Source: Citromicrobium bathyomarinum (lineage in GTDB: Bacteria; Pseudomonadota; Alphaproteobacteria; Sphingomonadales; Sphingomonadaceae). Taken from it: a DNA stretch of 64,000 nucleotides. The stretch's first letter is position 1. Every line of letters begins with the position of its first letter. The stretch lies in the NCBI GenBank assembly GCA_001306305.2, contig CP155577.1, positions 310,001 through 374,000 of the forward strand. The letters run 5' to 3'. Below the pieces are notes generated by a model. It worked only from the letters and a program-made list of their open reading frames with translations. It ran no database searches and was not told the origin of the DNA. Positions 1 to 9,601 of the stretch are shown here, one piece after another. The translations under genes and the position numbers were made by a program.

Positions 1-2
1 AG

Positions 3-2120
3 ACGGGCCAGGTGGACCTCGGCGAAGCGATCCGCAACCTACCCCAGAATTTCTCGGGCGGTCAGAACCCTGGGGTTGGTTCGGGCGGCGGCATCGGCAA
101 TGAAAATGTAAATTCAGCATCGTCTCCCAATCTGCGCGGGCTTGGGCCCGATGCGACGCTGACATTGCTCAACGGTCATCGCCTTCCATACAACTCGGCG
201 TCCCAGGGCGTCGACATCTCCGCCATTCCGCTCGCCATTGTCGACCGGCTCGAGGTCGTCCCCGATGGAGCTTCAGCGCTCTATGGCTCGGACGCGGTTG
301 GCGGCGTTGTGAACGTCATCCTGCGCCGCGACTTTGAGGGCGTGACAACCTCGGCCCAGATTGGAGCGAGCACCGATGGAGGCAACTTTCGCCAACAGGC
401 CGACATAGTCGCAGGCACAATCTGGAACAGTGGCGGCTTCGTCTTCGCCTACGACTTCGCGAACAATTCCGGGATTGAGGCGAGGGAGCGCGCCTATGCA
501 GGATCACTGCTACCGGAAACCTTGCTTTATCCCTCAAACCGGCGCCACGCCGTAACATTTTCGGCGCACCAGAGCTTGTCAGAAGGCGTGGAGGCCAATC
601 TCGACGCGCTCTATTCGTATCGCGAATCAACCACCATTGATGGCACGCCGGCCCAGCGCATTCGGCGTGAGCCCGACCTCGAGACCTTTTCCGTAGCGCC
701 GTCGCTGCAGTTTGACCTTGGGCCGAGTTGGAAGGCCAATCTCGCGGGTGTCTTCGGGCGCGATCGAACCCGCTTCCAGACCAGTTTCATTCCAGAGACA
801 GGTCCGGCGCGCGTCTCTACGGGAAGCTACCTGCATCAGATCACCTCGCTGGAAATGGGTGCGGAAGGCCCGGTTATCACTCTTCCCGGCGGCGAGACGC
901 GCTTGGCTGTCGGCATCGGATTTCGTAACAATCGACTCGAGTACTCTCTGGAAAGCGCGATCCTCAATGCGCAATTCGATGCAACGCAGCGGGCTCGCTT
1001 CGCCTATGCGGAACTGTATGTTCCATTCGTGTCGGGTCGGAACGCCGTCGATGGAATCGAGCAGCTAACGCTATCCGCTGCAGTTCGCTACGAAGACTAT
1101 CCCGGACTCGACCAGCTCGCCACCCCGCGCCTTGGGATTACCTATTCGCCAAGTGGTGATCTGATGTTCAGAGCGAGTTGGGCACGCTCGTTCAAGGCTC
1201 CCACGCTTTTCCAGCAAAACATCTTTTCTCAGGCCATTCTGGTGCCTGCTGCGGTGTTCGGAGCGGGCACCGGCTCCGACACAGTCTTTCTGAGCGGGGG
1301 CGGCAATCCCAACCTCCGTCCCGAGCGCGCCCGAAGCTGGACGGCGGGATTCGAGTTCCAGCCTGCGGCAGTCCGAGGATTGACCGCCTCCGCGACGTGG
1401 TATGATATCCGCTATGACAACCGCGTCGTTGCGCCGATCGCTGGATCGATCGCAGCTGCTATCAACAATCCGGGCTATGCCAGCCTCATCGATTTTTCAC
1501 CTGATCCGGCCGATTTGGCCGAACTCATCGCGGGTGCCCAGTTCGGATTGGAGAACTTTACAGGCCGCCCGTTCGATCCTGCAGATGTTGTCGTTCTGTT
1601 CGATAACAGGAACATCAATGTCGCGGCGTGGAGCGTAGAAGGGCTGGATGCCAGGATTGCCTGGAACCGCGATCTCGGGAATGACCGCTCGATAGGATTG
1701 GATCTCAACGGCAGCTGGTTGCGCAGCAGGCAAACCATCACATCCGAACTACCTGAAGTCCAGCTTGCCGGTACGACTTTCAACCCGCCCCGCTACCGCG
1801 CGCGTGGAGCAGCAAGATATCGGGCAGGCCGCCTTACCGCCAATGCGGCAGTCAGTTATATCGGTGCGCTCGTCGACAGACGGCTTGCAACCGTGCAGCG
1901 GCTGTCACCAAGCGCAACTGTCGATCTTGGCATGCACTATGCGGTCATTCGCGGCGACGACCGTGATCCCGGCCTCGAGTTCTCGTTGACCATTCAAAAC
2001 CTGTTTAACGATAAGCCGGACGTGATCGGCCAAACCGGTCCCAACACAACACCCTACGATTCAACCAATTATTCTCCGATCGGGCGCTTCATCGCGTTTG
2101 GCGTAAGGAGGCATTGGTAA
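3..2120 (+). CDS. TonB-dependent receptor, 5' end outside window
   Basis: Outer-membrane TonB-dependent receptor, probably for uptake of a ligand tied to the adjacent lasso-peptide isopeptidase. The reading frame is open from base 3, and the signal peptide and start of the plug lie outside the window. The visible plug carries LRGLGPDATLTLLNGHRLP and the segment VDRLEVVPDGASALYGSDAV, typical of receptors of the CirA/FecA kind. A long beta-barrel follows, with the usual PRLGITYSP, SFKAPTLFQ and NPNLRPE segments, and the protein ends in FGVRRHW. Its stop codon (2118-2120) overlaps the isopeptidase start, so the two are translationally coupled. In Sphingomonadales such receptors commonly flank lasso-peptide isopeptidases. 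The ligand cannot be read from sequence. Confidence 0.92.
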   Translation, partial: TGQVDLGEAIRNLPQNFSGGQNPGVGSGGGIGNENVNSASSPNLRGLGPDATLTLLNGHRLPYNSASQGVDISAIPLAIVDRLEVVPDGASALYGSDAVGGVVNVILRRDFEGVTTSAQIGASTDGGNFRQQADIVAGTIWNSGGFVFAYDFANNSGIEARERAYAGSLLPETLLYPSNRRHAVTFSAHQSLSEGVEANLDALYSYRESTTIDGTPAQRIRREPDLETFSVAPSLQFDLGPSWKANLAGVFGRDRTRFQTSFIPETGPARVSTGSYLHQITSLEMGAEGPVITLPGGETRLAVGIGFRNNRLEYSLESAILNAQFDATQRARFAYAELYVPFVSGRNAVDGIEQLTLSAAVRYEDYPGLDQLATPRLGITYSPSGDLMFRASWARSFKAPTLFQQNIFSQAILVPAAVFGAGTGSDTVFLSGGGNPNLRPERARSWTAGFEFQPAAVRGLTASATWYDIRYDNRVVAPIAGSIAAAINNPGYASLIDFSPDPADLAELIAGAQFGLENFTGRPFDPADVVVLFDNRNINVAAWSVEGLDARIAWNRDLGNDRSIGLDLNGSWLRSRQTITSELPEVQLAGTTFNPPRYRARGAARYRAGRLTANAAVSYIGALVDRRLATVQRLSPSATVDLGMHYAVIRGDDRDPGLEFSLTIQNLFNDKPDVIGQTGPNTTPYDSTNYSPIGRFIAFGVRRHW

Positions 2121-4267
2121 TGACTGCGCTCCTTACCCTAGCGCTCAGCCTGACGATCGTGCCGACAGCTGAAGATCCGCCATCGGCCGAAGATCCGTGT
2201 GATGCACTGCCCATCGCCCAGGAAACGGCAAATGCGGAATTAGGTGAGTGGACAGTGGACGGACAAGTCCGGATTGCGGATATTGGCGCACCGGTCGGAA
2301 CTCCCAATCGAAGTGTATTTGGCATCTCGCCTGACGACAGCCAAATTGCCTTCACCGTCCGTCGCGCAATTCCCGAGACGAATAGCTATTGCCAAAGACT
2401 GCTGGTCGCGCCGTTGAACGGCGAAGGTTCTCCAATCGAGGTGGCGCGCGGCGGGGAATTCATTCGCGACGATTTCCGGCTTCGCGACTTCACCGCGATA
2501 CTGGCCGGTTGGCCTAGGACAAGCGCGCCGCGATGGTCGCCGGATGGCATGCGAATTGCGTATCTGAGGAGAGAAGCCGGTTCGACACAGGTTTGGTTGG
2601 CCAGCCCAACCGGGCAAACGGGTGCGGTCCGAGCAACCAATCTGGCCGACGATGTCGACGATTTCGCCTGGGCTCAGGACGGAATGGGTCTCATTGTCAG
2701 CACAAGGCCTGCAATTCGCCTCGCCGCCGCGGCAATCGCCAGCGAAGGCAGACGCGGCTTTCTCTTCGACGCGCGGTTTGCGCCGCAGGCAGCCGACCGA
2801 CCGATACCGACCGGCCATGCCGATCCGATCTATACATGGGTTTCGCTTCGGGACGGGTCATCGCGACCTGCAACCGAAATGGAGCAGGTGCTTATTGCCC
2901 CGCCGCGACCGGCAGCGATACCGGACAACGCACGAAATGTTCGATCAGGAGAGGGCGGATTTTCGGCCTGGCTCGAAGCAGAGTTCCCCGAGCGTCTCCT
3001 CAGCCCGACGCGGCTGGTTCTGGCCGCTCCGGACGGCAGCCGAAAAGTCTGCCCTGTCACGCAATGCGACGGCATCCGAGAACTGTTCTGGTCGGCCTCG
3101 GAGCGCGCCCTTTTCCTCGTCCAGCGTACTGGATGGGCCGACAGCCAGACGGCATTGTTGCGCTGGGATCCCCGCGATGCTGCGCCTCGCCAAGTCCTGA
3201 TTTCCGATGATGTGTTCATCGGGTGCGCCCCTCATGCCAACGAACTTATTTGCGGGCGTGAGGGCAGCACACAGCCTCGCCGATTAGTGGCGCTCGACAT
3301 GCGAACGGGATCAGAACGACTGATCCACGATCCAAACCCGCAGCTTGAGAACATGGAGTATGGCTCCGTCCAGCGTTTCCGCTTCCGCCTGGCAAGCGGT
3401 GTCGAGAGTTTCGCCGACCTTGTCCTGCCGCCCACTCATCGACCTGGCGAACTGCATCCCCTGATCGTGGTGCAGTACCGGAGCCGGGGCTTCCTTCGCG
3501 GAGGAACCGGGGACGAGGTTCCGATCCAGCCTCTCGCCGCACGCGGATTCGCGGTCCTCAGTTTCGACCGGCCTGATTTCCCGCCAGAGGCGTATCTGGC
3601 AACAACCGATGCAGAAATACGGACATTGAGCGAAGATGACTGGGCGGACCGGCGCCAGGTGCAGGAAGCACTAGAGCTCGCTGTACGACGCGCCGTCGAG
3701 ACTGGTGCGGTCGATCCAACGCGCATGGGGATCAGCGGATTCAGTGATGGCGGATCGACCGTCCAGTGGGCGCTGATCAACTCGGACCTTTTCCAGGTCG
3801 CTTCGATGGGATCGTGCTGCGAGGATCTCTACTCCTTCGCTCTCGCTGCAGGGCCACGGTTTACCGAGTATTTGCGGGACATGGGTTATCGCTATTTCGA
3901 GCCCGGTGCCGAAACATTCTGGGAGCCCATGTCGCTCATACTCAATGTGGACCGGATCGATGTTCCAATTTTGATCCAGGCAGGGGACAGCGAGTACGAA
4001 GGCAGCCTCGATGTCGTTGAAACCTTCTCGCATAACAATAAGGCTATCGAACTCTACGTGTTCCCCGATGAGTCTCATGTCAAATGGCAATCGTCGCATC
4101 GCCTGGCGATGTACGAGCGCGTCGTCGAATGGTTCGAGTTCTGGCTTATGGGCAGGCTGAACTGCAATCCTTCAAGAGAAGCACAGTACGCCCGCTGGAG
4201 CGCCATGGAGGGTGCCCCGCCCACACGCGACCTTCGCTGCCATGCTGAACCATTAGCGGGTCCATGA
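2120..4267 (+). CDS. Lasso peptide isopeptidase, AtxE2-like S9 family
   Basis: Predicted alpha/beta-hydrolase of the prolyl-oligopeptidase (S9) family that opens the isopeptide ring of a lasso peptide. The 715-residue protein has an N-terminal secretion-like segment, a beta-propeller half and a C-terminal hydrolase. The nucleophile is S542 in GFSDGG. The acid is probably D623 (QAGDSEYEGS) and the histidine H653 (DESHVKW), with spacing like prolyl oligopeptidases. The ATG at 2120 is chosen because AAGGAGG lies 8 nt upstream and the ATG overlaps the receptor's TAA; a TTG at 2114 is possible. It converges on, and overlaps by 15 bp, the lasso cyclase fragment. The isopeptidase call rests on family plus context (receptor and cyclase); a general S9 peptidase is the alternative. 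Confidence 0.85.
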   Translation: MTALLTLALSLTIVPTAEDPPSAEDPCDALPIAQETANAELGEWTVDGQVRIADIGAPVGTPNRSVFGISPDDSQIAFTVRRAIPETNSYCQRLLVAPLNGEGSPIEVARGGEFIRDDFRLRDFTAILAGWPRTSAPRWSPDGMRIAYLRREAGSTQVWLASPTGQTGAVRATNLADDVDDFAWAQDGMGLIVSTRPAIRLAAAAIASEGRRGFLFDARFAPQAADRPIPTGHADPIYTWVSLRDGSSRPATEMEQVLIAPPRPAAIPDNARNVRSGEGGFSAWLEAEFPERLLSPTRLVLAAPDGSRKVCPVTQCDGIRELFWSASERALFLVQRTGWADSQTALLRWDPRDAAPRQVLISDDVFIGCAPHANELICGREGSTQPRRLVALDMRTGSERLIHDPNPQLENMEYGSVQRFRFRLASGVESFADLVLPPTHRPGELHPLIVVQYRSRGFLRGGTGDEVPIQPLAARGFAVLSFDRPDFPPEAYLATTDAEIRTLSEDDWADRRQVQEALELAVRRAVETGAVDPTRMGISGFSDGGSTVQWALINSDLFQVASMGSCCEDLYSFALAAGPRFTEYLRDMGYRYFEPGAETFWEPMSLILNVDRIDVPILIQAGDSEYEGSLDVVETFSHNNKAIELYVFPDESHVKWQSSHRLAMYERVVEWFEFWLMGRLNCNPSREAQYARWSAMEGAPPTRDLRCHAEPLAGP

Positions 4268-5436
4268 GCGAGCCCAATTCTCGGCTTCGAGCAGGTCAAG
4301 TATGCGACCGAACATGCTGTTGTCGTCTCGTTCATCAGTGCGCAGCGCGGCTTCCACGGCATGGCGGTCGATTACCCCGTTCGCGGCGAGCAACCCATCC
4401 AGCAAGCGCTCGGCGATCGAATTTCGGTTCAGGGCGAAAATTTGCCTTACGAAGCTGTCGGGTCCGGCCTTCGATGTTCTGGCCAGCACGGCAGGCGGCA
4501 ATTCCTGTGCGAATGCCGCCCGGGCCAAAGCGCGGTTCCTGCCGCCGTGTGCCCATATCCAAGTCGGAACACCGAGACAAAACTCCATGAGCGGCTGACT
4601 CATTAGTGGCGAAAATCGAGGCGGGCCGGCGGCCAGTCCATGAATGTGGTTCTGTGCCCGCATGATCAGGACCATATGGTCGCGTTTTCCCGAACCTGAG
4701 ATCCCTAGAGGACTCAGCCAGGGCACGAGTGGCTCGCTGTACGCAGCGTCAGTTCCGCAGGTAAGCAGACTCGCATCGACCGGCCAGCTTTCCCTCGTTC
4801 CCTTACCAAGCCGTCTGCGAAGAACTGCGGCGACCATGGTGGGGACCGAGCATCCGGTGATATGGCACATGTCAATCAGGGAGCGCAGCACGCCTGTCCC
4901 CAGACCCTCCGCTGCCAGCCGGTCGGCTACCGGCGCAGAGGAATGGAGGAAACAGAACAGATTGTCGCCTCCGTTGCCATCGTAGATGACCGAGGCGCCG
5001 AGGTCCGCCATCGCATCGACAAGCAAGGCGTCAAGAATGTGCTGGAATGAACGTCGGGCCGGTCGCGGCAACCCCCGGGAGGAAGACCTCGAAGGATCGT
5101 AAAACGCCGGGTCGTATATCCGTTCGACACACCGAACCCCGAACCATTCCGCCACGCGATTGGCGTATATGCGCTCGTCGCCGGACGGATCCGGAGTGGC
5201 GAGAGTAACGCAATCGAAGCGTTCGCCCGAATGGGCCAGAGCAGCGCAAATGAATGACGAATCGACGCCGCCCGATGCCGCTACGCTTGCTCTTCCAAAC
5301 ATGCCGCTCCAGCTTTGCAGCACTGCGGCGCCGAGCTCCTTCAGTTGCGCGGCGTAATCCGTGAATGCCGGGATCGGCATTCGTGGGAGAAAGTCGGTTG
5401 CATGCCATATCCTACGGATCTGCAAACCCTGGCGCG
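4253..5436 (-). pseudogene. Lasso peptide cyclase (asparagine synthase-like), N-terminally truncated
   Basis: C-terminal ATP-dependent domain of an asparagine-synthetase-like lasso cyclase, the enzyme that forms the macrolactam. The ATP-pyrophosphatase loop SGGVDSS is present, followed by the conserved DGNGGDNLF segment. The linker IWHATDFLPR is where the N-terminal glutaminase-like domain should join, and those roughly 200 residues are absent. Upstream of about 5436 the DNA becomes traG in another frame, so the reading frame that continues to 5530 is a chance fusion. An internal ATG at 5380 could start a 375-residue fragment. Lasso enzymes normally need both domains, so the gene is most likely dead. 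The precursor and leader-peptidase genes are not in the window. Confidence 0.8.
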
Positions 5437-6564
5437 CGGCTTGGTGCGGCTGATGTCGGAGGGCGGGACGACGAGATAGAGTGTGACCGGTCGGCCCTGT
5501 GCCACCAGGTCCGCGATACGCCATTCGCAATGCCGGGTGACCCTGGCGATCACCGGATCGCGGTACAGCCCAAGGAACGACATGGCGGTCGAGAGCACGC
5601 CCGAGCGTTCGTTCTCCGACTTGTTGAGCAATTCTCTCGCCGCGCTCGCGACAACCGGATGGATGCCGTCTTCCCCCAGATGCGGCGTGTGCATCATGGC
5701 GGTCAATGTCGCCTCGATCGATCGGCGCGGATCGGAGAGGAAGTTCGCCACACCGGCGAGCGTCTTGTCAGGCTCGGCATAAAGCACATGCAGAATGGCC
5801 CCGACGAGAAGCGCATGGCTGGTCTTTTCCCAATGGTTGCGCCGTTCGAGCGAGCCTTCCGGGTCGACCAGCACGTCGGCAATGTTCTGGACGTCGCGCA
5901 CCTCGTTGATGCCGCGCCGCACTTCCATCAGCGGATTATAGGCTGCCGACGCTTCATTGGTCGGATCGAACAGAAGCGTGCGGCTGAAGCTGGACCGGAA
6001 ACCAGCGGTCAGCTCCCAGTTCTCGCCCTTGATGTCATGGACGATCGCCGAGTGCGGCCAGGTCAGCAGCGTCGGCACGACAAGGCCGACCCCCTTGCCG
6101 CTGCGCGTCGGTGCGAAACAGAGTACATGTTCTGGCCCGTCGTGGCGAAGATAGAGATTGGCGTGTTGGCCGATAATGACGCCCTTGCCCGCCAGAAGGC
6201 CAGCGCGCGCGATTTCGGAACGGGTCGCCCAGCGCGCCGAGCCATAGGTCGCGCTGTTCCTGATTTCTCGGGCGCGCCAGACCGACATGCCGATCGCGAC
6301 CACGACCGACACGAGACCGCCCGATGCAGCAATCATTCCGCCGGTTTCGAAGATGCGCGGCGCATAGGCTTCGTAGCTGAACCACCACCAGAAGATGGCA
6401 TAAGGCGGATAGACAGGCGCTCCGGAAACACTGAACCACGGCGCGCCCAATTGCGCCTGATAGCCGAGCGCGTATGCCGTCCACTGAGTGCCCGCCCAGA
6501 CGCCTGCGAGCGTGAGAGCGAAGACGACGAGTATCTGACCCCACAATATCCGGGTTGCCGACAA
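5437..6564 (-). pseudogene. traG: Type IV coupling protein TraG/VirD4, C-terminally truncated
   Basis: Inner-membrane ATPase that couples the relaxosome to the mating channel. About 376 genuine residues remain: N-terminal membrane segments (near residues 8-28 and 74-94), the conserved YGSARWATRSEI segment, and the Walker A loop PTRSGKGVG at about 152-160. Homology stops after VPPSDISRTKP. At about 5436 the sequence crosses into the lasso cyclase in a different frame, giving an unrelated 32-residue tail that ends at 5341. The Walker B half (normally near residue 400 of a roughly 650-residue protein) is missing. The element should therefore be transfer-defective unless another coupling protein exists elsewhere. 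The trb mating-pair genes expected next are not in the window. Confidence 0.88.
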
Positions 6565-6664: not shown

Positions 6665-7366
6665 CTAGATTGCTTCCCAATCAAAGGCAGGATTGCCGGA
6701 CCAGGTCAGGCGATACATCGCCCCTTGCGCGACCGATTGCACGACATTGGGCCACAAGGCCGCGATGCAGGTTCCGCCCGCATGGCGGACCGAAGAATAG
6801 ATAATCCCGTTATGGCCGGCGGCGCGCGCCTGCGCCGCTAGAGCATTGCCGACCGGATAGCCTTTCGTCTTGTCCGGATCGAGTGCGGGGTGATCAGGCA
6901 CGCCGCGCAGATCGATAAAGACCCCCGCCATGCTGGCGATCATCTCGCCATATTCGACAACGGCATCGAAATCGTCGGCATCGGCGAGCGCCTGCGTCAG
7001 GTGATGACCGACCTCGGCGATGCAGGTCTCGACATCGAGCGCGGCATACCATGCGCCGCGGTTCGCGGGGTTGAAGCGATTGGGCTCGCGCGGCTTGGCA
7101 TAGGCGAAGCTCGCATTGATAAATCTGGCATGCGGCACGCCGTGAACCAGCTCGTCGGCTGTCAGCCCGCCAAGCCCGCGCTCTTCGGCGATCAGGCGCG
7201 AACTCGTCGCCCCCTCGATTTCAGCGAGCAGCGCAAGCTCTTCACCATTGTCGGCTAGCGGAGCCATGACCGCTTCGCGCAAACGCGCGCTGGAAACGAG
7301 CCGGACCGTCCGCTCGAAGGCTTCGCGGATCTGCGGCGGCTCGCCCTCCTCCTCAGAGCCCGCCAC
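6665..7366 (-). CDS. RES-domain toxin (NAD+ phosphorylase family)
   Basis: Toxin of a type II toxin-antitoxin pair. RES toxins deplete NAD+. The 233-residue protein carries the RES hallmarks: RFN with a downstream arginine and WYAALD (conserved Arg, Tyr and acidic residues), and the IIYSSVRHAGG segment holding the conserved serine. The start is GTG at 7366, inside the last codons of the antitoxin gene, so the two overlap by 14 bp and are coupled. It sits between the relaxase and traG and may act as an addiction module for the element. It is longer than minimal RES proteins (about 150-200 residues) because of a helical N-terminal extension. Confidence 0.9.
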   Translation of the reverse strand: MAGSEEEGEPPQIREAFERTVRLVSSARLREAVMAPLADNGEELALLAEIEGATSSRLIAEERGLGGLTADELVHGVPHARFINASFAYAKPREPNRFNPANRGAWYAALDVETCIAEVGHHLTQALADADDFDAVVEYGEMIASMAGVFIDLRGVPDHPALDPDKTKGYPVGNALAAQARAAGHNGIIYSSVRHAGGTCIAALWPNVVQSVAQGAMYRLTWSGNPAFDWEAI

Positions 7367-7784
7367 GAAGCGCGTCGATATATTGCCTAGTCTCTAACAT
7401 GCGCGGAATACCGCCTTCGATCATTGCCTGGATGGGCGAGCGGCGATCGAAGACCGGAGCCCTGTTTTCGAGTTTCGGCCAGCGGTCGGCCATGTCGTTG
7501 GCAAACAGCAGGTGCAGCCCCTTGAACAGGCCGATCAGCGCCGACGCGCGGGTCAACTGGTCCTGACCGAGCGAGCCCTCCCATGTTCCGGCTTTCATCC
7601 GGTCCCAGGTGCTTTCGGACACGCCGAGCAGTGCAGCACCGTCGGCGTTGCTCGCACCCCAAGCCTCGATGAGCCGCAGCACGGCTTTTACCGCAGCGCT
7701 GGTGAGGCGGCTGCGATCACCGTCGCTTGCAAAGGTCTGAAGCCCCGGGGGAGCTTCGGCATGTTGAATCGCTGCACTTACCAT
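7353..7784 (-). CDS. MbcA/ParS/Xre-type antitoxin of the RES pair
   Basis: Antitoxin partner of the RES toxin: 143 residues with an N-terminal helix-turn-helix-like region (GASNADGAALLGVSESTWDRM) and a C-terminal MbcA/ParS/Xre toxin-binding domain (LIGLFKGLHLLF, then NRAPVFDRRSPIQAMIEGG). The ATG at 7784 is preferred over an in-frame upstream start at 7832 because AGGAGA (7791-7796) lies 6 nt before it. The AT-rich segment just upstream, including CATATG near 7816, is a plausible autoregulatory site. Its ribosome-binding context (ATCAGGAGA) matches that of other minus-strand genes of the element. Confidence 0.87.
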   Translation of the reverse strand: MVSAAIQHAEAPPGLQTFASDGDRSRLTSAAVKAVLRLIEAWGASNADGAALLGVSESTWDRMKAGTWEGSLGQDQLTRASALIGLFKGLHLLFANDMADRWPKLENRAPVFDRRSPIQAMIEGGIPRMLETRQYIDALRGGL

Positions 7785-7858
7785 ATCGCATCTCCTGATG
7801 CGTTTATAAGCATCATATGGTGCGTTTGTCAAGATTTCCGTTTAGATGCCGGTGCTCA

Positions 7859-9601
7859 TCAAACCGCCGGCCCGCGCGAGCGCGCAAAGTTCCAATCGAC
7901 ACCGCCGCGTGCATTAACCTTGCCAGCGACTTCTTTTCCAAGATGCCGCTCGAGGTCTTGCCTCCAGGGCACGAGCTGGAAACCCACTCCGTCATCGATC
8001 ATGGCGAAGCGACCCGACGCCAGCGAAATGCGCTCGCGGTAGATGCCGGAAATGTGATCGCCTTCCGTTACCGGATTTGCCAGACGACCATGACGCGCAG
8101 CCAGCGCTTTACCTGCCGCGTCCAGTTCCTGCTTGCGGAGCGCTCCGAGAAGGTTGCGCACCAAGGTCACGCTCCTACCATGTCGCTTCGCAAGACTTTG
8201 ATCGACGAGCCAGTCACGGCGCTCGTCAAGAGCCTTCCGGACTTCATTGCCGAAGCCGCCTCCCAGCGACGCGGCTCGTGCCGACAGCAGCTGCCGGTCG
8301 AGCCAGGTCGCCCCGCGCGCGTCAATCTGCCGCTCGAGCGGCAGGTCCGAGCGCACCAGCAGGCTTTCGCGCCGCCGCCCCTTGCGGTCGGTCCATTCGC
8401 TTGTCTCGACGATCGCGCCGGGTGCTGCATCGCTCGTCTGGTCAAGATCGGGGAAGCGAAGATAGTGGGCGCGACCGTCCACTCCTTCGACGATCGCATA
8501 AGCCTCGCCTGTCAGCTCGTTATGGAGACCGCGCTCGACCAACCTGCCGATGACTCGGCGGTTCTCGTCTTCTCCATGCAGCGCTAAGGATGCAAGGGCG
8601 CCTTGTGCGCCGCGTCCACTCATCGCCTTGTGCAAGGTCTTGATGATGTCGCCGCGCTCGCCAAGCGCGCGCAAGGTCGGTTCGAGATCTGCGGCCAAGG
8701 TCCAGCGCGCCGCCCCGATCCGCTCGGCCAATCCCATGCGTTCGAGCGTTCGTGCGCGGCCGATAAGGAATGCGCGGTTGCTGCGCCGTGTCGCATCGAC
8801 TTCGGGGGACAAATCGACCACGCCGAGATCGTCGCGTTGCTTTTGCAGCCGGCGGTCGAGTGAGGTCCAGCGCTCGGCATCGACCTCGCGGCGAAGCGCT
8901 AGCTGAATATCGCGCTCGCTGCGCGGCCCGAGTTCGATAGTGACGCGCTCCTGGGCACGGGCCCGCATGCCTTCGCTGATATAAGAGCGATCAATCACCA
9001 GGTCCCTGCCATCCGAGGCAACGCCGCGGACCAGAACATGGACATGCGGGTTGTCGGTATTCCAGTGATCGACCGCCACCCAGTCGAGGCTGGTGTCGAG
9101 GTCGCTCGCCATATCTTCAAGGAGCTCGCGCGTGAAAGCGCAAAGGTCAGCCATCTCGCTCGCGTCTTCCGGCGACACGATGAAGCGGAAGTGATGCCGG
9201 TCGTCTCCGCAGCGCGCGGCGAAGGCATCGCCATCGACCTCATCCGACGAGGCATCGAACATCTGGGCATCCGATCCGTCACGGGTGACGCCGTCGCGTT
9301 CGAGATAGGCGATGTGGCGAGCGAGCGGTGCAGAGCGGAAGCGGCTGCCGCCATGACGAACGACGCGCGCCTTGATGATGACCCGCCGCTGGAAAGCATG
9401 GGGGCGGCCTCGGAACGCAGCCCTTTTGCCGCGTCCCAGATGTCCGGTTCCGCCGCCAGCCCGGCCTCGCGTGAGCGGTGTATAGCCTGACCGGCGCGAA
9501 ACCTGCAGCACGCGTCCGACCAGCGAACCGGCCTTGCGATAGGCGCGCGCATCGCTGTCTCGCGACTGACCCGGCCTGATGTTGATTTCATCGTCAGCCA
9601 T
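7859..9601 (-). CDS. Conjugative relaxase, DUF3363 family
   Basis: VirD2-like relaxase that would nick oriT and lead the transferred strand. The 580-residue protein starts with the family's MADDEINIRPG segment and a basic N-terminus. It has HHFRFIVSPED, the metal-binding motif HWNTDNPHVHVLVRG (histidine triad region), then the long C-terminal DUF3363 region. The ATG at 9601 is the only start that keeps the conserved N-terminus. It lies upstream of the toxin-antitoxin pair and traG on the same strand. The 240-bp gap before it (9602-9841) is the natural place to look for oriT. Confidence 0.93.
   Translation of the reverse strand: MADDEINIRPGQSRDSDARAYRKAGSLVGRVLQVSRRSGYTPLTRGRAGGGTGHLGRGKRAAFRGRPHAFQRRVIIKARVVRHGGSRFRSAPLARHIAYLERDGVTRDGSDAQMFDASSDEVDGDAFAARCGDDRHHFRFIVSPEDASEMADLCAFTRELLEDMASDLDTSLDWVAVDHWNTDNPHVHVLVRGVASDGRDLVIDRSYISEGMRARAQERVTIELGPRSERDIQLALRREVDAERWTSLDRRLQKQRDDLGVVDLSPEVDATRRSNRAFLIGRARTLERMGLAERIGAARWTLAADLEPTLRALGERGDIIKTLHKAMSGRGAQGALASLALHGEDENRRVIGRLVERGLHNELTGEAYAIVEGVDGRAHYLRFPDLDQTSDAAPGAIVETSEWTDRKGRRRESLLVRSDLPLERQIDARGATWLDRQLLSARAASLGGGFGNEVRKALDERRDWLVDQSLAKRHGRSVTLVRNLLGALRKQELDAAGKALAARHGRLANPVTEGDHISGIYRERISLASGRFAMIDDGVGFQLVPWRQDLERHLGKEVAGKVNARGGVDWNFARSRGPAV

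Follow-up and report, generated by a model that had tools for sequence, protein, structure and literature searches.

The TonB-dependent receptor and lasso-peptide isopeptidase genes at the start of the 64,000-nucleotide stretch analyzed here (the window, bases 310001-374000 of the single 3.30-Mb contig of a Citromicrobium bathyomarinum genome) are most likely the surviving half of an AtxE2-type cluster that was carried as cargo beside trbI in a conjugative element and was cut by one deletion, which would make the pair a recent leftover and not a trait kept by selection. The gene architecture, the deletion, the missing synthesis genes, the intact frames and the active-site residues are read directly from the sequence.

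An intact receptor-isopeptidase pair

The two genes of the pair lie on the forward strand.

1..2120, + strand: TonB-dependent receptor; the window contains the final 705 of its 784 codons and the stop; start at G000:C1:309766 of the window genome
2120..4267, + strand: AtxE2-family lasso-peptide isopeptidase of 715 aa, from the ATG at 2120 to a stop codon whose last base is 4267

The receptor frame is open at the window start and stops at 2118-2120. It begins at an in-frame ATG at L003:13766, 235 bp upstream of window base 1, which gives a protein of 784 aa whose Pfam matches are Plug and beta-barrel domains and nothing else. The isopeptidase scores 762.5 bits against NCBIfam model NF033523 (cut-off 400), over model positions 2-638 of 638, and matches AtxE2 (PDB 5txc) with an E value of 3e-129. 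Ser, Glu and His are invariant across 13 aligned isopeptidases, that of the window included, in columns that match the active site of 5txc; we take these columns to be the corresponding individual active-site residues of AtxE2. As expected of an isopeptidase-type lasso cluster, a TonB receptor gene adjoins the isopeptidase gene in the window. In the available sections of PMC9266682, AtxE2-type clusters are described with a TonB transporter beside the isopeptidase, as here, and the triad of isopeptidases as Ser-His-Glu/Asp.

The receptor TAA and the isopeptidase ATG overlap by one base. Across the loci that we scored, the nearest in-frame start overlaps the receptor stop by 1, 4 or 7 bases in 126 of 155 (157 were read and two dropped because they had no usable receptor end; ATG was preferred, and other starts were taken only if there was no ATG), arguing that coupling of receptor and isopeptidase is general. 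If the two proteins are made, they should be functional, the receptor importing and the isopeptidase then opening the cognate peptide. We infer their production, as well as their ligands and the ring of the peptide.

A deletion joint between the cyclase gene and traG

The isopeptidase gene faces what is left of a lasso cyclase gene, which abuts part of a conjugation gene.

4253..5438, - strand: lasso cyclase gene (C), 3' part; about 180 N-terminal codons gone; 15-bp tail-to-tail overlap with the isopeptidase gene
5436..5438, no strand: deletion joint, a 3-base overlap between flanks that are separated by 23.0 kb (G036) or 30.3 kb (G162) in relatives
5436..6564, - strand: traG, 5' part, matching positions 1-380 of the 667 in the profile of this conjugal coupling protein; stop codon of the frame at 5341

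The cyclase remainder, the 3' two thirds of the gene, spans profile positions 114-507 of 507 and was scored as incomplete; in G162 and G249 the gene is full-length and 100% identical over the part searched. A TraG-cyclase fusion protein was considered and rejected, as the traG frame, which differs from that of the cyclase, reaches a stop some 32 codons beyond the joint.

Seven related loci were compared with the window: G162, of the same species; G249, of the same genus; G036, of another genus; and the named records Erythrobacter sp. HI0063, Tsuneonella suprasediminis, Novosphingobium aquimarinum and C. bathyomarinum IOP_28. They amount to six independent loci, since G162 and IOP_28 are apparently one assembly. 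Over the shared stretch, identity to the window is 99.95% for G162, 99.96% for G249, 99.0% for G036 and 99.90-99.98% for the four named records, and all seven stop matching at base 5438. Past this base the relatives continue with the rest of the cyclase gene, the B protease, the precursor and trb genes. The cyclase is encoded in a single frame in six of the seven and is frame-shifted in G036; B (220 aa with PF13471 in G162) and a 45-aa precursor of invariant sequence are present in all seven. At the distances listed above, the loci of G036 and G162 match the window again in traG; the gene is full-length in G036 and has a match in G162. The joint at 5438 occurs in none of the nine other genomes of the genus.

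A single deletion would thus account for the joining of traG to the cyclase gene. In one step it would have shortened traG by half and the cyclase gene by about one third and removed the trb genes, the precursor and B, leaving an element without trb genes of its own in a cell that is a non-producer. The receptor and isopeptidase genes would have escaped by virtue of their position on the outer flank. Formation of the joint in the sequenced stock or in the assembly is very improbable: the joint is private to one genome and its flanks share a mere three bases, as might be expected of an artifact, but the single-contig genome is given as 100% complete and a comparable break, joining the relaxase gene to trbL, is present in the same element of G249.

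Synthesis genes missing from the genome

A search for the B protein (Transglut_core3) gave no match in the window genome, G000. As a control, 60 of 62 other genomes, nearly all of them picked for having an isopeptidase, gave a match; the misses were G245 and G279. No lasso-type cyclase was found across the window genome besides the fragment; the other full asparagine-synthase gene (G000:C1:2254552) is a weak cyclase match, with an E value of 2e-5 and 30% identity. The 1.4 kb of DNA carrying precursor and B is absent from the window genome, whereas the same query matched at 100% in G162, G249 and G036. Nor was a precursor A, with its leader Thr two residues before the core, found in the window genome. 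The window strain is therefore very probably unable to make a lasso peptide of its own.

A preliminary description of this DNA, made from the letters of the window, had proposed that the receptor and isopeptidase are intact and translationally coupled, that the adjacent cyclase is broken and that the cell makes no lasso peptide itself. The full frames, the profile score, the aligned active-site residues, the shared base and the joint at 5438 agree with it on the first two points. Its third point depended on there being no complete lasso set elsewhere in the genome, and such a set is rejected, as B, a full or second lasso cyclase and the precursor-B DNA were all looked for there and not found. 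Its suggestion that a precursor gene be sought upstream of the pair proved misplaced: there is none there, and in the relatives the gene lies beyond the deletion, on the far side.

The cluster as probable cargo of a conjugative element

In the relatives, the gene order is sigma factor, receptor and isopeptidase, facing cyclase, B protease and precursor, followed by trbI, more trb genes and later traG; trb genes follow the cluster in all seven related loci (Pfam matches gave the names trbI, trbF, trbL and trbE, inspection by eye gave trbG and trbJ). The parts of the element that we recognized at the window locus are an integrase-like gene, the truncated traG and the following relaxase gene.

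7859..9601, - strand: RlxS-type relaxase of the same element, with homologous stretches in G249 and G036

The trb genes are absent from the 98 kb around the window locus, where five Trb proteins of G036 had no match. No tRNA that might mark the element ends was found in the 20-kb upstream locus or in the window. A RES-domain/Xre-like toxin-antitoxin pair lies between traG and the relaxase gene (window 6665-7832, - strand). A sigma-70-like gene is present upstream of the receptor; we spotted no FecR by eye among the upstream frames, which were scanned in part. Further genes upstream of the receptor encode an autoinducer synthase (PF00765; L003:2752-3462, - strand) and a LuxR-type regulator with an autoinducer-binding domain (L003:10935-11774, - strand). 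ACR3-type arsenite pump-, arsenate reductase- and glyoxalase-like genes, named by eye from sequence, are found at L003:8422-10501.

Three distant loci, with isopeptidases 56-78% identical to that of the window, also have trbI adjoining the cluster.

L127:15081-21960: cluster beside trbI
L128:13367-13777: cluster beside trbI
L137:14092-14349: cluster beside trbI

The position in the element is therefore no recent accident, and the site next to trbI appears to have served for cargo over a long time.

The element varies in other ways among the relatives. In G249 (L044:1308-2240), a separate deletion joins the relaxase gene to trbL; it cuts the trb series, and the lasso cluster is complete. In G036 (L065:9682-14843), a gene for an SMC/AAA-domain protein and a nucleotidyltransferase/HEPN gene are located between trb and traG, within the stretch that the window lacks. 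Elsewhere in the window genome there is a second full-length traG (1198 bits, G000:C1:694932-696914), with a TrbI gene 12 kb off at 682669-683202, and two more TrbI genes bring the number outside the locus to three. These genes suggest additional conjugation systems, by which the element might be moved in trans.

Frequency of synthesis loss among related loci

Of 397 genomes of the family, 59 contain matches to NF033523 above the cut-off, 70 loci in all. Around each of these, and around 7 weaker or broken ones, we examined 9-20 kb, or 34 kb in the case of the window, using profiles built from the loci. Complete, single-frame B and C genes are present at 60 of the 70, so that a complete cluster is the usual state; contig ends truncate another 2, and 8 are incomplete, namely the window and the following loci.

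G036: C frame-shifted; B and precursor intact
G245: neither B nor lasso cyclase found in the genome
G164 and G110: no B or C near the locus; full sets at other sites of the genome
G163: B and C on the same contig at a distance of 22 kb; receptor split (L194)
G200: C present, B missing; complete set on another contig
G279: C cut, B missing, receptor split; draft genome

Six of the eight have an intact receptor as well as an intact isopeptidase, and a FecR regulator is kept in three (G245, G164 and G110). Orphan pairs in related genomes, which the preliminary description had proposed to look for, thus do occur, as in G245. Among named records, we took the best 80 of the 205 loci found. Within these 80, B and C are present in 70 and neither is in reach in three: Novosphingobium sp. 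BW1, where an IS66 transposase gene follows, Sandaracinobacter neustonicus, and Sphingomonas populi, where the contig ends. In six others a contig end falls within B or C (L129, L132, L151, L158, L168 and L197), and in L181 both cyclase and receptor are split.

On a tree of the loci, the incomplete ones are scattered, and their seven labels need seven changes (the label set includes L061 and leaves out L051 and L092, which were classified later). In view of this scatter we reject membership of the window in an old orphan lineage. The window and G036 represent separate losses within one near-identical group.

Starting from the cyclase, we counted by hand 75 loci of at least 425 bits, three of which are broken themselves (window, G036 and G279). 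At the remaining 72, the isopeptidase is broken in two (G201, and the draft genome G384), displaced in one (G163) and affected by a contig end in one (G224); seven cyclase loci whose neighboring isopeptidase-like gene scores under the cut-off, at 146-158 bits, were counted as having one. Synthesis is thus lost in 7 of 68 loci (leaving out the displaced G163 and the two contig-end loci) versus a broken isopeptidase in 2 of 71 (leaving out G224), a difference with a Fisher p of 0.09 that is biased, the loci having been found by isopeptidase search. The contrast leans weakly to keeping the receptor-isopeptidase pair. In G201 (L118 and L119) the isopeptidase gene is split into halves that lie 87 kb from each other on a single contig, the 3' half next to intact B and cyclase genes and the 5' half next to the receptor gene.

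Predicted peptide and substrate

The cognate peptide predicted from the relatives is GAVGFYIDASGGQLANSPGLLDE, with a Gly1-Asp8 ring; the prediction places the leader Thr two residues before the core and uses the first acidic residue, at position 8. The predicted cores of L127 and L128 differ from that of L043 in the last residue only, and their isopeptidases are 76-78% identical to that of the window, which argues that the peptide is far better conserved than the enzyme that processes it.

According to the available sections of PMC9266682, the protease cuts the leader, the cyclase closes the ring and the isopeptidase opens threaded peptides only; the characterized isopeptidases open the peptide of their own cluster, and one enzyme assayed against 24 lasso peptides cut its own alone. 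The likely substrate is therefore GAVGFYIDASGGQLANSPGLLDE made by kin and not lasso peptides generally, as the preliminary description had envisaged, and the astexins that it named for an assay are probably the wrong substrate. For the same reason it is hardly credible that the pair serves to import and open the lasso peptides of other bacteria, for food or to disarm them, even with receptor and isopeptidase both intact. Protection fares no better in particular, as taking in an antibiotic peptide would be a poor defense, and the known isopeptidase-type peptides except astexin-1 are said in the same sections to be without antimicrobial activity (PMC9266682).

Remnant or selected trait

Compared with G162, G249 and three named relatives, the receptor and isopeptidase genes show 0-2 synonymous and 0-1 non-synonymous changes each. 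Relative to G036 there are 36 synonymous and 20 non-synonymous base changes in the two genes (L127 and L128 were dropped from the comparison, as they had no anchor). The G036 changes suggest purifying selection, which would mostly predate the losses. An attempt to measure selection from base changes was given up, those relative to the close relatives being too few. As the deletion is private (0 of 9 genomes) and the genes have barely changed, sequence does not distinguish a remnant from a selected trait. The preliminary description is supported in part: the cell very probably makes no lasso peptide, and pairs without synthesis genes occur in relatives too, but the private, recent deletion, the near-unchanged genes and the scatter of incomplete loci over the tree give no support to the pair having been kept as a source of nutrient or protection.

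We regard it as unlikely that loss of synthesis was itself favored, with uptake kept to use the peptide or its cargo from producers of the same species or producers carrying the element. A producer and a non-producer do occur in one species, with the rest of the locus 99.95% identical; the precursor is identical in the Erythrobacter, Tsuneonella and Novosphingobium records; and 6 of 68 resolved loci have intact receptor and isopeptidase genes without complete synthesis, those labeled on the tree being scattered. Isopeptidase clusters have also been likened to siderophore systems (PMC9266682 and PMC11006600, as far as their available sections go), which their neighboring transporter and regulators resemble (PMC9266682). 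All this would suit a cheater among kin, but the deletion is private and recent and bears no trace of selection, and the asymmetry between keeping and losing is not significant (p 0.09). Moreover, we know of nothing that would show the lasso peptide GAVGFYIDASGGQLANSPGLLDE to be a public good. In a broader version, to which we give little more credence, receptor-isopeptidase pairs would be uptake modules in their own right, which non-producers keep for a specific lasso peptide that the element spreads both within a species and between genera, like siderophore cheats. The window strain would then, with the same small probability, be a cheat of this kind; longer-lived cases would be G245, G164 and G110, with their FecR. 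A recent remnant left by the deletion thus remains our preferred reading.

Relation to known clusters and significance

The astexin-2/3 cluster of Asticcacaulis excentricus (AtxE2; PDB 5txc and 5txe) has an isopeptidase of the same family, NF033523, with aligned Ser, Glu and His. Unlike that cluster, the window has no precursor or B and a fragment of the cyclase, and the cluster of the relatives lies beside conjugative trb genes. The sphingocin cluster of Sphingomonas BPH comprises synthesis genes and an adjacent isopeptidase and TonB receptor, with a similar predicted core, GPGFINNDGVGGKLPFAGLSDD; it is complete, in contrast to that of the window, and a mutant in its B2 gene lost phenanthrene use, as reported in the sections available of PMC11006600. 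The window strain would in effect be a natural mutant of a sphingocin-related cluster. Homoserine-lactone/lasso clusters of Qipengyuania pacifica NZ-96 and Citromicrobium sp. JL477 have an autoinducer synthase nearby, as does the island of the window; in Q. pacifica B, C, isopeptidase and TonB receptor are all present (PMC9318849, sections available), whereas the window lacks B and a complete C. The Q. pacifica isopeptidase (L149) is 57% identical to that of the window. We found no report of orphan receptor-isopeptidase pairs in the non-subscription literature searched.

The role of isopeptidase-type lasso peptides is called enigmatic in the available part of PMC9266682. The window adds a case in which a deletion in a conjugative element can strip synthesis yet leave uptake, in a cluster that lies beside trb genes at 99.9% identity in records named for four genera. 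The leftover pair could let the window strain use the peptide made by its kin. A non-producer and a producer of one species with near-identical receptor and isopeptidase genes would provide a ready pair of strains with which to ask if the peptide is a shared good.
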